From positions 36,855 to 100,854 of the forward strand of contig JAKQOG010000189.1 of the NCBI GenBank assembly GCA_029565395.1: 64,000 nucleotides of DNA, given 5' to 3'. The position numbers were made by a program, and so were the translations under genes. The number at the start of each line of letters is the position of its first letter. Positions within the stretch are counted from its first letter, which is position 1. The notes beneath the pieces were generated by a model that made no database searches, was not told the DNA's origin, and saw only the letters and a program-made list of their open reading frames with translations. Below are positions 15,527 to 43,263 of this stretch, one piece after another. The DNA is from Candidatus Hydrogenedentota bacterium (GTDB lineage: Bacteria > Hydrogenedentota > Hydrogenedentia > Hydrogenedentales > CAILVY01).

Positions 15527-15710
15527 TCCATTGCGCACAATTGACCGCTGCTGGCGGCGATTCGCAGAAGAAAGAAAAATACAAAGCTGGGAGGGCGAAA
15601 CTCCCGAGGCTGTCTGAGAATTGTAAAATCCCGTTTCAGGGAACGTGGAAATGATCCAACACTGGGTGTTAGTAAAAAGTATTCATCCCCACAGGGGATG
15701 GATAACTCAG

Positions 15711-15738
15711 CCCAGGATAAGCGAAGCGCCATCCTGGG
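15711..15738 (+). repeat. REP-like palindrome CCCAGGAT-AAGCGAAGCGCC-ATCCTGGG
   Basis: Perfect 8-bp arms; belongs to the family CCCAGGGTnGCGnnnCGCnnACCCTGGG. Confidence 0.75.
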
Positions 15739-15835
15739 TGTGTAGGATTTCCCCATGGAGGATACTCTGAAAGAGTTATACAAAATATTTTATGAAACTC
15801 TTACAGAGTAACATCAATTGGGGTGGTCTTGCCTA

Positions 15836-15863
15836 CCCAGGGTGGCGCTTCGCTTACCCTGGG
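15836..15863 (+). repeat. REP-like palindrome CCCAGGGTGGCGCTTCGCTTACCCTGGG
   Basis: Inverted arms with GCGCTTCGC core. Confidence 0.78.
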
Positions 15864-15932
15864 CTGGGTTGTTGAATCCCATCGAGATATCGTTGCCTTT
15901 TCACGTAGTATTAAATAATTTTCAGACAGCCT

Positions 15933-16029
15933 CTCCCGCTGAGCCGTGAAACAAGATCGGGAGAAGTAAGGGCATATTCTGGATACGGTATATTTTGTTC
16001 GACGGCTCAGCGGGAGCTTCGCCCTCCCG
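15933..16029 (+). repeat. Repeat family 2, copy 2, with an additional inverted arm
   Basis: CTCCCGCTGAGCCGT (15933-15947) is the exact reverse complement of ACGGCTCAGCGGGAG (16002-16016); right part matches 5732-5770. Confidence 0.7.
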
Positions 16030-16325: not shown

Positions 16326-16444
16326 GGCTCCAATTGTATCATTTCCTCTTTATTGTTCAAGTCTTCAATACGATATTCTCAATTTTTTGTCATAGCGACT
16401 TTTATGTAACCCTTAACAGGGTAGTTTGTGGCGGTGGTTCTATA

Positions 16445-16499
16445 CCCAGGGTAGCGAAGCGCAACCCTGGGCTGGAATTATTTAATCCCCTTTGGGGAT
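16445..16499 (+). repeat. REP-like unit: CCCAGGGTAGCGAAGCGCAACCCTGGG followed by ATCCCCTTTGGGGAT hairpin
   Basis: Two consecutive inverted repeats at 16445-16471 and 16485-16499. Confidence 0.78.
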
Positions 16500-16642
16500 A
16501 ATAGATAGCATTTTACCAATAACGGACTTTACACGATTTCAAAATATGACTTTATACGCTAGGTTGGAATTATAAAACCCCCTTCGGGGATAATAAATCC
16601 TATATCGTAATCACAGGGTGTTGCGCGATCTCAAGACAAAAC

Positions 16643-28376: not shown

Positions 28377-28563
28377 CAGTGCGAGTTCTCCACCCGTCAG
28401 AGCGCCGAGGTGAATCGGTGAGAGACACCTGAATGCACCCATGCGCTTTTGGTATCACATTTTTCCCCGCAGGGGATGGATAACTCAGCCCAGACATTTT
28501 ATGGGTCACATGCAACATTTTAGAATGGATTATTCCCATGGTTTTCCACAAGACGCAAATAAA

Positions 28564-28590
28564 CAGGGGTAAGCGCTTCACAACCCTGGG
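28564..28590 (+). repeat. Diverged REP-like palindrome (CAGGGGTAAGCGCTTCACAACCCTGGG)
   Basis: Same core as other copies, upstream of the transposase. Confidence 0.55.
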
Positions 28591-28767
28591 TATGTAATAC
28601 CACTCTGCATAATCACCGCTCTCAAAATTCCGAAGGAATTTAACAACTCAGCCCGTGGATACGTGAAGCGCCATCGTTGGGGGAATAATGAAATCCTTTT
28701 CGAGTTTTGATATGTTGGTGCAAACGGTGCGCAGGAGCAATATCCCAACGGGATTAATTATTTTTAG

Positions 28768-28794
28768 CCCAGGATTGCGCTTCGCTACCCTGGG
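28768..28794 (+). repeat. REP-like palindrome CCCAGGATTGCGCTTCGCTACCCTGGG
   Basis: Inverted arms, GCGCTTCGC core, 5' flank of the HUH transposase. Confidence 0.75.
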
Positions 28795-28846
28795 TTAAGG
28801 TTCATTCTCAAACCTACCCTGTAAGGGTTGGATAAAGGAGGCGCGT

Positions 28847-29302
28847 ATGTCACAGTCGTTGTCACGGATCTATATTCATGTCATTTTTTCCACAAAGGAA
28901 CGCAGGCCGTTTTTCCCGGACTGTCATCTGCGGCGGGAGATGCATGCCTATCTTGCTTCGGTGTTCGCTAATCATAGTTCTCCAGCATTTTTAGTGGGTG
29001 GGGTCGAGGATCACGTTCACGTTCTATGTGATTTTTCACGGACATATGCCCTATCGGAAGTTATCAAGGAAGTGAAACGCGTATCGTCGATATGGATAAA
29101 AACGAAGGGACCGGAATTTTCCAAATTTCACTGGCAGGCGGGCTATGGGGCATTTTCGGTAAGTCACTCGAATGTGGGTAGAGTGAGGGCGTATATCATG
29201 AATCAGGAGGAACACCACCGCAAGATTAGTTTTCAGGATGAGTTTCGGAAGTTTTTAAAGAAGCATGCCATCGAATATGATGAACGCTATGTGTGGGACT
29301 GA
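28847..29302 (+). mobile_element. tnpA: IS200/Y1-type HUH transposase (TnpA_REP-like)
   Basis: IYIHVIFSTKERRPFF N-term; HUH motif DHVHVLCDF; catalytic Tyr region RVRAYIMNQEEHH; HWQAGYGAFSVS. Confidence 0.92.
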
Positions 29303-29355
29303 ATGTTCGGGATTTTAGGCAACCCTTTCAGGGTAGGTTCATTAGGGGATCTTGA

Positions 29356-29384
29356 CCCAGGGTAGCGCTTCGCGCAACCCTAGG
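29356..29384 (+). repeat. REP-like palindrome CCCAGGGTAGCGCTTCGCGCAACCCTAGG, 3' flank of the transposase
   Basis: Embedded in CAGGGTAGGTTCATTAGGGGATCTTGACCCAGGGTAGCG, also found at ~42945-42983. Confidence 0.78.
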
Positions 29385-29440
29385 CTGGAATTAATTATCC
29401 CCGTTGGGGAATAGGGTAGTTATTAGGGGCGGTCCAATAC

Positions 29441-31522
29441 CTAGGGTAGCGCTACGCGTAATGCCGTTGCCTTTTCGCGACAGGGCACGCTGGTGTAGGT
29501 GAATCGCTTCACAAGATCTTGGAATCCATCATTGTTGCGGTCTTCGGCAAGCCAGAGACGTTTGAAATCGGTTTGCAGAGTCTCAAATTCCGTGGCAACG
29601 GTATCAAGATCATCCGCCGCCTGCTTCCGGGGCACGGTGGCGTCGTTATAATGTCCCAATGCCAGCAGTTTATGGCCCAAGGCGACATAATACCGCACGC
29701 CAAAGATCCACTGCTCATAATTTTCCTGGTTGCGCCGAACCTTCGCGGATTGCGCATGAAGCGTGGCAAGCGCCGGAGACGCCCGATCAAGAATCTTTTG
29801 GCCCACCGCCGCCGGGTCCGCGATGCGCGTGATCTCCGCATGGGTGAACGGGTCGTGAACAAATTCCCAAATGAACGAAGTGGATACTTCCGTCTCTTTG
29901 CCGTCTTTATCCCGCACCTTAATCAATAAGGCATTCACATCGCTTGCGCGTTCCATCGCGCGCACCGCGGCGTCGTCCGGCAAGCCATATACAATTCGCG
30001 CATAGGCCTTGCGGAAATATTCGCGATCTAAATTTCCGCCGTTCCAGGCACAGGCCCCGTGATACACAAAAGGAAGCCATTCCTCGCCCACAAAGTGAAA
30101 ATGCCCGGCATCGCCCCAGTCCGTCGTTATACTGCCCGACGCTCCATGCTGAACACCCCGCGACACCTCCAAATCCGAAAATTCCGCCGCCTTGTTCACC
30201 CACGGTGTCAACCACACATGACTGTAAATCCACGGCTGGGCAAAGAACTCGAAGCCCTTTTCATGCAACCGCGGGAAATCCTTTTCCCAGGCCGGCTGAT
30301 ACGGCCCCCCAGCGCAATAATAACTGCCGATAATGATATCCTTGGGCAACAGATCGAGTTTGGGCCCCATGCCTGCAAGATGGCCCTGACTGTCCAGCGG
30401 CCCCTGCGTGATCATCAGCCGCCTATTATGTTTTTTCACCTCATCATTCAGTTGAAGAACATACTTGAACACAAGGTCCGTGACTTGTTCGAGGGTGATT
30501 CCTTCTTTTTGGAGGTCATCGATATCAATTTCCGTGATATCGATGTTGAACAATTCGCCGGGAAAGGTTTCGCACAACTCACCGATCATGGCGCAAACCA
30601 TTTGCACCGCTTCCGGTTTGCGAATATCGAAGGTCATAATCCAGGGCATATTCTCGGAGGGGCCAATCCGCAAATGCTGATACTGCGGCTTGCTCAGGAT
30701 GTGATAAGAATGCCCCAGCCCTTGAAACAGCGGATGCACTTCCACCCCCAGCCGCGCGGCATGCGCCGACCATTCTTTTCCTTCCTCCGGCGTCAACCCT
30801 TCCGGCGGTGAGATATCCGGGAACGCTTTGTATTTGTATACATGCTCCAGATAAAACTCCATCTGGTTCATTTTCGCCCATGCGCACACTTCCGACAATT
30901 TTTTTAATGTTTCAAGCTTTGGAACTTGCCCGCGCGAAATGTCTTGTTGGATTCCCCGGTATTTCAGCGACGGCCAATCATATATAGTCATACCCGGCAG
31001 CAAGGTGCGATCCGTTGCGATCTGCGCCAGCGTCGTTACACCATAACGCAACCCCGCCAAAGACCGCGCCGCCAATGTAATGCCCGCGTGATTAATCACC
31101 AGAGCATAACCTTGTTCTACATGCAGGTCTCCCGGCATATCCCCAGTTTTCGCCAAGATCATGATTTTTTTAGCCTCTTCCCCCAGCACAAGATCAATCA
31201 CAGGGCCTTCAGTGTAATCCGTACCAACAGACAGTTCTACACCCAATGCCACTGCAAGCCGTGCTGCGGCCCATTGTGCGAGTTCGCTTGTCTGTTGGTT
31301 TTCCGGCTTAATCGAAATGCCCTTGGCGGAAGTAATATCGAAAGAAACCCCGGGGAGCGCTTGAACCACTTTGGGTTGAGCCAAAATCCAGGTATCCAGC
31401 GAAGTCAATGTCTTACTTACTTCTTCCGCAGTGTTTTGAACACTTTCCTGCGCAGGTATCGGCGCCGTAAAACAAGCGGAAATCAAAAAAAGGCTTATGA
31501 TTGTGCAATGATTTCTTGTCAT
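29441..31522 (-). CDS. Secreted GH20-like (beta-N-acetylhexosaminidase superfamily) glycoside hydrolase
   Basis: Signal peptide; GH20b-like N-domain (LAARSLAGLRYGVTTLAQI), DWPSLKYRGIQQDISRG; TIM-barrel-like middle. Confidence 0.7.
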   Translation of the reverse strand: MTRNHCTIISLFLISACFTAPIPAQESVQNTAEEVSKTLTSLDTWILAQPKVVQALPGVSFDITSAKGISIKPENQQTSELAQWAAARLAVALGVELSVGTDYTEGPVIDLVLGEEAKKIMILAKTGDMPGDLHVEQGYALVINHAGITLAARSLAGLRYGVTTLAQIATDRTLLPGMTIYDWPSLKYRGIQQDISRGQVPKLETLKKLSEVCAWAKMNQMEFYLEHVYKYKAFPDISPPEGLTPEEGKEWSAHAARLGVEVHPLFQGLGHSYHILSKPQYQHLRIGPSENMPWIMTFDIRKPEAVQMVCAMIGELCETFPGELFNIDITEIDIDDLQKEGITLEQVTDLVFKYVLQLNDEVKKHNRRLMITQGPLDSQGHLAGMGPKLDLLPKDIIIGSYYCAGGPYQPAWEKDFPRLHEKGFEFFAQPWIYSHVWLTPWVNKAAEFSDLEVSRGVQHGASGSITTDWGDAGHFHFVGEEWLPFVYHGACAWNGGNLDREYFRKAYARIVYGLPDDAAVRAMERASDVNALLIKVRDKDGKETEVSTSFIWEFVHDPFTHAEITRIADPAAVGQKILDRASPALATLHAQSAKVRRNQENYEQWIFGVRYYVALGHKLLALGHYNDATVPRKQAADDLDTVATEFETLQTDFKRLWLAEDRNNDGFQDLVKRFTYTSVPCREKATALRVALP

Positions 31523-31675
31523 GGCAATCCGACCTCCCTCTTTTAATGCATAACAACGCATTCTTCGTTTTCAATACCCTATTTAACCACCGGTCACGTT
31601 CATATGAATCACACCAGCCAAGTCAGTATACTGAATCCGCACAAAAAAAGCTTGAAACAAAATGAGGAGACAGCA

Positions 31676-38775: not shown

Positions 38776-38934
38776 CCTTCCGAAAATATCCGGTTACATT
38801 TGTTTCGCCCTTTCAGGGCTTTTTATTGTTGGATGCATTTACCCAGGGCGTCGCTTCGCTTGCCCTGGGTTCAGGAATTCCTATCTGGTGAAGCCCTGAA
38901 AGGGCGGAACACACTCAACCTGGTTTTCGGAAGG
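38776..38934 (+). repeat. Nested composite inverted repeat with central REP-like palindrome
   Basis: Outer CCTTCCGAAAA/TTTTCGGAAGG (38776-38786/38924-38934), middle CGCCCTTTCAGGGCT/AGCCCTGAAAGGGCG (38806-38820/38892-38906), centre CCCAGGGCGTCGCTTCGCTTGCCCTGGG (38842-38869). Confidence 0.8.
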
Positions 38935-42645: not shown

Positions 42646-42773
42646 ATCACGCCACCTTTCGTTAAAAACTTCGATTCACCACACCGTTATAATCACACGA
42701 AGATTCTATTGGTTCCAAAGAATGATATCAATCTACCAAATTGTCTAATTCAATGCGCACTCGAAAAGGCTTT

Positions 42774-43021
42774 TCCCTGAAGGGGATGGTTTAATTCCAG
42801 CCCTGGGTTTATCCGCCGCAGGAGGGGTTACGCGAAGCACTACCCTGGGTCTTGGGCATCCCTAAAGTAACGCCTATCTACCCTGAAGGAGTTGGTGTAT
42901 TGTTAATCACAAAATTAAGTTTCAAATGCATTATAAAACCCCTTCAGGGTAGGTTCATTAGGGGATCTTGACCCAGGGTAGCGAAGCGCAACCCTAGGCT
43001 GGAATTATTGAATCCCTGCGG
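42774..43021 (+). repeat. Cluster of REP-like palindromes (two units) and short CCCTGAAGGGG-type hairpins
   Basis: CCAGCCCTGGG...GGGTTACGCGAAGCACTACCCTGGG and CCCAGGGTAGCGAAGCGCAACCCTAGG (42972-42998). Confidence 0.75.
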
Positions 43022-43263
43022 GATACTCTGATCTTTGCCAAACCGTATCAAATTACGCTTGAAGAGAATTCTCAGACATTCAAATGGCTCCCCTTCGGGG
43101 ATCACTTTTATGCGGAAAACTGTACATTATGTCTATACTGCACCATACCCCTTTCGTGAAAAATGCGGGTTATCTTCATTCTATTCTTTGGTTCGGGTTA
43201 TGTCACGCCGGTCTCCAGTTATCTAATCCTTTCGGGATATCTCAACTACGAACTACCACCCCG

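Follow-up and report, generated by a model that had tools for sequence, protein, structure and literature searches.

The window analysed here is a 64,000-nucleotide stretch from a Candidatus Hydrogenedentota bacterium (contig JAKQOG010000189.1, positions 36,855 to 100,854), within which the gene tnpA, located at 28847-29302 (+), encodes a transposase of 151 aa. The gene is placed between inverted copies of a composite of approximately 95 nt, in which a small hairpin, a palindrome with an AG foot and a second small hairpin follow one another, and its neighbours on either side are glycoside-hydrolase-like genes. In a preliminary description, the locus was regarded as a REP-associated tyrosine transposase (RAYT) accompanied by dispersed repetitive extragenic palindromes (REPs). 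The genome of the window, a draft of 7.55 Mb in which the window lies on contig C126, is denoted G000; other G labels denote genomes, L labels loci and C labels contigs.

The transposase and its flanking composites

The reading frame of tnpA is intact and its product contains a complete Y1_Tnp domain (PF01797, 80.6 bits), in agreement with the earlier identification of an HUH transposase with an HVH motif and a catalytic tyrosine region. The motifs DHVH, WQ and YIMNQEEHH, also examined in an alignment of 29 relatives, correspond to the signature of TnpA-Y1 subclass 1.2, given as DH[IV]H, WQ, Y---Q--HH and a length of about 148 aa in Table 1 of PMC6006769. Among the relatives found, the Y..Q..HH pattern was present in 80 of 80, one of them being encoded at C67:243-695 of G049 (locus L009, contig JACRLJ010000104.1, Candidatus Hydrogenedentota) and another, at locus L047, by the cultured Rubritalea marina DSM 17716. 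When the family profile was compared with the sequences of solved structures in the PDB, IS200-type TnpA alone was matched, with the HUH and Tyr positions aligned. The AlphaFold model of the protein (pLDDT 89) displayed its best fold matches to the TnpA of IS608 and ISDra2 (E 5e-8), while E. coli TnpAREP (4er8) was the weakest significant match (E = 5e-4). The score against the curated IS200 profile, 54.5 bits, was just under the cut-off of 55. Because of its motifs, closest solved structures and fold, the transposase is assigned to TnpA-Y1 subclass 1.2, which adjoins IS200, and is not a RAYT (class 2).

If the protein were a RAYT and the palindromes ordinary GTAG-tagged REPs, the arrangement would be that of REP-rayt-REP, with two inverted palindromes and dispersed doublets, as is the case here, and a GTAG foot does occur in 15 of 150 composite matches. 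However, the RAYT model NF047646, which is matched by 16 of 30 family members at E<=1e-3, gave 23.2 bits for the tnpA product versus a cut-off of 80, and the RAYT-defining Y---NP motif (NP[LV][RK]xG) is replaced at the catalytic Tyr116 by YIMNQEEHH. In the tree, in which deep forks are weakly supported, the product pairs with another Hydrogenedentota sequence and the three class-2 genes of G000 are located on a long branch distant from it. The structural matches described above, a foot that is mostly CCAG or TCAG and the presence of three hairpins per composite also argue against a canonical RAYT/REP pair, which is therefore highly improbable. The RAYT assignment of the protein itself, as proposed in the preliminary description, is rejected in view of profile, motif, fold and tree.

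As for the flanks, 28744-28836 on the left is the inverted complement of 29314-29408 on the right. The left composite (28740-28836, +; E = 8e-9 with covariance model R2), directed towards the gene, consists of an outer small hairpin ATCCC-AAC-GGGAT at 28742-28754 (+), a central palindrome CCCAGGATTGCGCTTCGCTACCCTGGG at 28768-28794 (+), preceded by its AG foot at 28766-28767, and an inner small hairpin ACCCTGTAAGGGT at 28816-28828 (+) on the gene side; for both small hairpins, compensatory changes were observed among copies. The right composite (29315-29411, -; R2 E = 2.6e-10) is inverted with respect to the left one and represents the top match of covariance model R1 in the genome (108 bits). 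It comprises the inner hairpin at 29322-29334 (-), which reads ACCCTGAAAGGGT on that strand, the central palindrome at 29356-29384 (-) and the outer hairpin at 29398-29410 (-). When both copies were folded as single-stranded DNA, precisely these three hairpins were obtained, and none of 200 shuffles folded as well. The companion hairpin ATCCCCTTnGGGGAT, previously taken for a separate element, corresponds to the outer small hairpin within the composite, which also has the inner hairpin ACCCTGAAAGGGT. The tip GCGAAGC was considered as a strand marker and dropped, as copies aligned in one register carry the tip in either orientation.

Four palindromes had been described around the gene, of which only the two central ones are full copies. 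That at 28564-28590 is degenerate with one arm damaged, and that at 29440-29467 is a half palindrome containing the stop codon of the GH20-like neighbour gene at 29441-31561 (-). The final codons of this gene and its TAG stop come from the half palindrome, at 29441-29467. Degenerate composites are also located upstream of tnpA at 28459-28552 (+; R1 E = 0.03) and 28622-28713 (+; R1 E = 0.006).

Conservation, dispersal and association with the gene

The inverted arrangement is not confined to the window. Of 77 testable relatives, 65 had left and right flanks that aligned as inverted repeats better than in any of 200 shuffles, including 47 of the 49 testable loci of a group composed of Planctomycetes-Verrucomicrobia-Chlamydiae (PVC), Hydrogenedentota, Sumerlaeota and Acidobacteriota members. 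The layout is constant despite sequence divergence, with a hairpin at about 0-14, the palindrome at about 25-47 and a hairpin at about 67-85. In an alignment of 34 sequences, compensatory changes were found in all three hairpins (85 double-change cells versus 27.9 when shuffled), and 86.8% of cells were paired, compared with 28-58% when partners were slid. R2 detected composites on both sides of tnpA in 22 of 26 loci outside its training set (L009-L050). Within 200 nt of the gene, 110 R2 matches were in the expected orientation (+ upstream, - downstream) and five in the other, one of the latter (L036) being read by eye from the match table. Across 150 matches, some of them from the training set and all of them fitted to the model, the AG foot is nearly invariant (A 100%, G 96%) in the context NYAG, mostly CCAG or TCAG and also TTAG, a YA dinucleotide follows each small hairpin at about 5 nt, and the consensus contains no T-tract. 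Furthermore, R2 matches, up to 92 of them, were present in all 32 tested genomes of other relatives reached through these loci.

In Hydrogenedentota, the dispersed composites track the gene. Over the full set of 68 genomes compared for this phylum, R2 matches were found in 43 of 43 carrying the gene at E<1e-20 (median 30) versus 10 of 25 without it (median 0), corresponding to a Fisher p of 7e-9, or 1e-8 at a threshold of 10 copies. The proposal that an HUH transposase and REP-like palindromes form one system is upheld in this respect. The palindromes are absent from 15 of the 25 gene-negative genomes. Abundant palindromes without the gene, named in the preliminary description as evidence against it, are seen in a few genomes (G021 and G066), which are exceptions.

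Within G000, a simple sequence pattern gave 82+81 matches versus 30+29 for a reversed-pattern control; being noisy as a copy counter (163 versus 59), it was replaced by covariance models. A genome-wide count with R1 yielded at least 103 matches at E<=0.1 and at least 88 below 1e-3, almost all of full length, both being lower bounds from the 150 candidates scored out of 1792. The repeat family is far above chance in this genome. Compensatory changes are again evident (24 versus 7.5 when shuffled); one pair of the inner hairpin, for example, occurs as C-G, U-A or G-C. Neighbouring composites within 400 bp of one another are arranged as '+-' in 18 cases, as '-+' in one and on the same strand in 10, and the inner gaps of the doublets fall into discrete classes of 4, 28-29, 88-90 and 99-103 nt.

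The gene had been described as single-copy, which is correct for tnpA itself, although G000 contains two further, divergent subclass 1.2 paralogues with palindromes of their own. Each of the three genes (on C126, C135 and C283) is flanked by its own composite type, that on C283 being GTAG-footed. Judged from sequence, every tnpA paralogue is coupled to a palindrome type specific to it. R2 found no composite beside the IS200-type gene of G000 (C88) or its three class-2 genes. The paralogue at L004 (C283:17028-17465, -) has DHAH in place of DHVH next to its GTAG-footed flanking palindrome. At L008 (C278:4565-4816), a class-2 Y1 gene (YVHNNP) lies amid an array of GACTGCGGGAGCTTGCTCCCGC-type hairpins, which constitute a separate repeat family, and one of these hairpins is located inside its reading frame. 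Near-identical subclass 1.2 proteins are encoded at L023, L024, L025, L027 and L029, in drafts that carry the labels of several distinct Verrucomicrobiota families, which may reflect recent transfer or mislabelled genomes.

In the window, the dispersed palindromes previously located at 15711, 15836, 16445, 38842 and 42972 are real, as indicated by sequence and R1 matches. Doublet A is formed by composites at 15681-15784 (+; R1 E = 5e-16) and 15789-15893 (-; R1 E = 1.8e-15), with an inner gap of 4 nt, and outside it lies a terminal repeat GAGGCTGTCTGAGAATT at 15606-15622 (+) with its partner at 15917-15933 (-). Single composites are found at 16401-16503 (-; R1 E = 1e-14) and, with a second palindrome type, at 38799-38907 (-; R1 E = 3e-5, R2 E = 2e-10). 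Doublet B comprises 42769-42900 (+; R1 E = 1.4e-5), the palindrome of which is interrupted by a short insertion, and 42930-43029 (-; R1 E = 6e-19), with an inner gap of 29 nt. The insertion, of 20 nt and overlooked in the preliminary description, affects the inverted partner at about 42800; the short repeat TTTATCCrCCGCAGGAGG at 42808-42830 breaks this palindrome and also occurs next to other doublets (flanks of L173 and L180). All full copies in the window are intergenic, consistent with the earlier observation that palindromes lie outside the core of genes, while the degenerate copy at 29440 supplies a stop codon to its neighbour.

Deletion derivatives, polymorphism and the ends of the unit

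Traces of the gene persist within some doublets. Twelve doublets of G036 have in common a core of high similarity around a centre of 18 nt, and five further elements of this genome retain the last ~37 codons of tnpA, with both flanking composites at L189 and L193 and one at L190, L191 and L192. In G000, the class with gaps of 88-90 nt retains an MSQSL start and, out of frame, a stretch resembling FSTK, in short matches of weak blast significance. On the evidence of these remnants, the doublets concerned look like internal deletions of composite-tnpA-composite units. Such derivatives suggest that gene-bearing units were once mobile and would also accord with an ordinary IS200-type insertion sequence with hairpin ends, in which the gene and its flanks transpose together; the IS200-like fold and the near-threshold IS200 profile score point in the same direction. 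Here, however, the ends are inverted, whereas IS200/IS605 elements have no terminal inverted repeats (PMC2817692). The full gene is single-copy with divergent paralogues, gene-less composites number in the dozens, and the repeat also occurs far from any tnpA, which makes an ordinary insertion sequence an unlikely description of the locus.

Presence/absence polymorphism was also observed. The sequences bounding a doublet on C58 of G036 adjoin one another in three congeners (G034, G035 and G037), where they are separated by 60-133 nt that contain no composite, and a second G036 locus shows a similar situation in G037. Insertion in G036 is the simplest reading of the C58 case, the alternative being loss in three relatives. 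A candidate empty site of the tnpA unit itself in the congener G001, where the orthologue of the neighbour gene has no tnpA beside it, was set aside because gene order differs there. The C58 polymorphism contradicts copies that are inherited purely vertically and are never polymorphic, as would be expected if the hairpins were transcription terminators or mRNA-stabilising elements unrelated to transposition. Intergenic placement and the copy that forms the 3' end of a gene are in keeping with such a role, which would be compatible with the transposase-based explanation preferred below. Nevertheless, the inverted doublets of discrete spacing, the paralogue-specific sequences around each tnpA, the lack of the repeat in 15 of 25 gene-negative genomes, the consensus without a T-tract and an Rfam search that gave no match in the whole window leave hardly any probability for it.

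Regarding the ends of the mobile unit, no single rule emerged for the two genomes compared. In the twelve aligned doublet units of G036, one side ends at a hairpin followed by TA(A) and no terminal repeats are present, while many doublets of G000 are bounded by GAGGCTGTCTGAGAATT. The latter bracketing would be explained if the composites were passengers, either in elements resembling miniature inverted-repeat transposable elements with GAGGCTGTCTGAGAATT ends that are moved by an unrelated transposase, or as a hairpin recruited by the host, with tnpA merely inserted nearby. Beside tnpA in several phyla, however, it is the composite and not GAGGCTGTCTGAGAATT that recurs; moreover, the G036 units lack such a terminal repeat and the gene-repeat association holds across 68 genomes. 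A passenger origin is thus considered improbable.

Interpretation and relation to known systems

The REP/RAYT pair is the best-known case of a transposase that is apparently kept by bacteria for the sake of scattered repeats, and its experimentally studied examples belong to class 2. The locus described here probably represents a REPtron- and REPIN-like system (REPINs being inverted REP doublets) built on an IS200-proximal transposase of TnpA-Y1 subclass 1.2 instead of a RAYT. It works like a RAYT/REP system without membership in the RAYT family. This explanation is built on the established anatomy, compensatory changes, dispersal, gene co-occurrence, doublet subfamilies, deletion derivatives and presence/absence polymorphism.

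Several observations weigh against it. Common descent is left uncorrected in the co-occurrence test, which also counts as matches the copies that flank the gene itself, although the p of 1e-8 is obtained at 10 or more copies. Four gene-negative draft genomes (G007, G021, G048 and G066) carry 13-35 copies. The arrangement is less frequent in the Bacteroidota part of the subclass (18 of 28 'other' loci). The chief caution is that, in G000, 21 of the 29 copies of the terminal repeat GAGGCTGTCTGAGAATT are located no more than 200 bp from a composite, so that some of the doublets in this genome may have been spread by another mover, a terminal-repeat transposase. In G021 and G066 (for example at L195), 30 and 35 composites were counted and the subclass 1.2 gene was not found, which may arise from gene loss, an assembly gap or another mover.

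In the preferred REPtron-like explanation, we infer that the repeats are recognised, cut and moved by TnpA itself. TnpAREP binds the folded single-stranded REP in dependence on the tetranucleotide at its foot, with cleavage at CT or CA (PMC8266576), and it is by analogy with this enzyme that recognition and cutting near the palindrome are predicted for subclass 1.2. A TnpA dimer would bind the palindrome folded in single-stranded DNA, for example on the lagging-strand template, with the AG foot acting as a guide. The HUH motif and tyrosine would then cut and rejoin at short sites near the hairpins, possibly at the YA steps on the 3' side of each small hairpin, and inverted pairs of composites would be moved or copied in trans. 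Doublets without an intact gene would constitute the miniature form, and single composites would be decayed or partial doublets.

The system resembles the REPtrons of E. coli, Pseudomonas and Stenotrophomonas, in which a RAYT (TnpAREP) is combined with REPs, in its HUH/Y1 protein, the position of the gene between inverted palindromes, the dispersed extragenic copies, a separate palindrome for each gene and the association with gene presence. RAYTs are recognised by many extragenic cognate palindromes, often >100, and here at least 88 were found at E<1e-3. It differs from REPtrons in its IS200-like protein of subclass 1.2 without the NP motif, in a foot of NYAG as opposed to GT[AG]G, and in a three-hairpin composite of ~95 nt in place of a single palindrome of 20-50 nt. 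As with REPINs, inverted doublets appear to be the spreading unit, discrete subfamilies exist and singles resemble remnants. Unlike in REPINs, each half is a composite, many G000 doublets are nested in larger terminal-repeat units, and some doublets contain pieces of tnpA and therefore appear to derive from a gene-bearing unit. TIRYTs and TIRtrons (Di Nocera 2013) likewise combine a Y1 transposase with long, partly self-complementary terminal inverted repeats that are repeated in some genomes, but those described carry a GGGGWSAS motif and belong to subclasses 2.1, 2.2 and 2.5 (PMC6006769), not 1.2. IS608 and ISDra2, of the IS200/IS605 family, share the closest solved structures and fold, the Y---Q motif and subterminal hairpins with the present system; their ends are not inverted repeats, however, their copies are near-identical and multiple, and they lack a dispersed hairpin family.

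In 2018, subclass 1.2 was listed without REP association and mostly from Cyanobacteria and Bacteroidetes (PMC6006769). The present proteins agree with that account in DH[IV]H, WQ, Y---Q--HH, a length of ~150 aa, low copy number and divergent paralogues, but REP-like composites are the rule here in the PVC phyla, Hydrogenedentota, Sumerlaeota and Acidobacteriota. No paper on REPs with subclass 1.2 was found among the open-licence papers searched, a coverage that does not amount to proof. The system differs from a REPtron with REPINs in its protein subclass, foot and three-hairpin repeat, and agrees with it in layout and behaviour. A further reading, which we put forward tentatively and regard as possible, is that subclass 1.2 TnpA represents a lineage of its own among the single-strand transposases, present across PVC and neighbouring phyla, with a repeat architecture distinct from both RAYT/REP and IS200. 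The AG-footed palindrome would then lie between small hairpins that are identical and have YA cut sites, each composite could serve as a minimal IS200-like unit, and inverted composites could correspond to a REPIN. Such a lineage would have been overlooked because subclass 1.2 was scored as REP-less.

If a conserved IS200-like counterpart of RAYT/REP is indeed present in many phyla, this way of life would have arisen in at least two branches of the family, and the description of subclass 1.2 as REP-less would be corrected. Ready substrates are at hand, since the foot, the YA dinucleotide and the hairpins can be mutated individually and tested with one protein of 151 residues. Furthermore, with the covariance model, copies of the repeat can be counted in draft genomes from phyla with scarce repeat annotation.

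The palindrome is itself the site of other insertions, located exactly at its outer foot, with the left end TCCCTAATTnTCCAA, the right end GGTTGCGGCTACGCCGCGATA and an apparent CC duplication. Short copies of ~81 bp are present in L003, L090, L103 and L104, and a copy of ~1.8 kb at L197:245-2030 (C233 of G000). An open reading frame of the ~1.8 kb insertion (L114:1570-3006, -) encodes 478 aa, for which no Pfam or NCBIfam family was matched. These insertions possibly represent an undescribed transposon that targets the palindrome.

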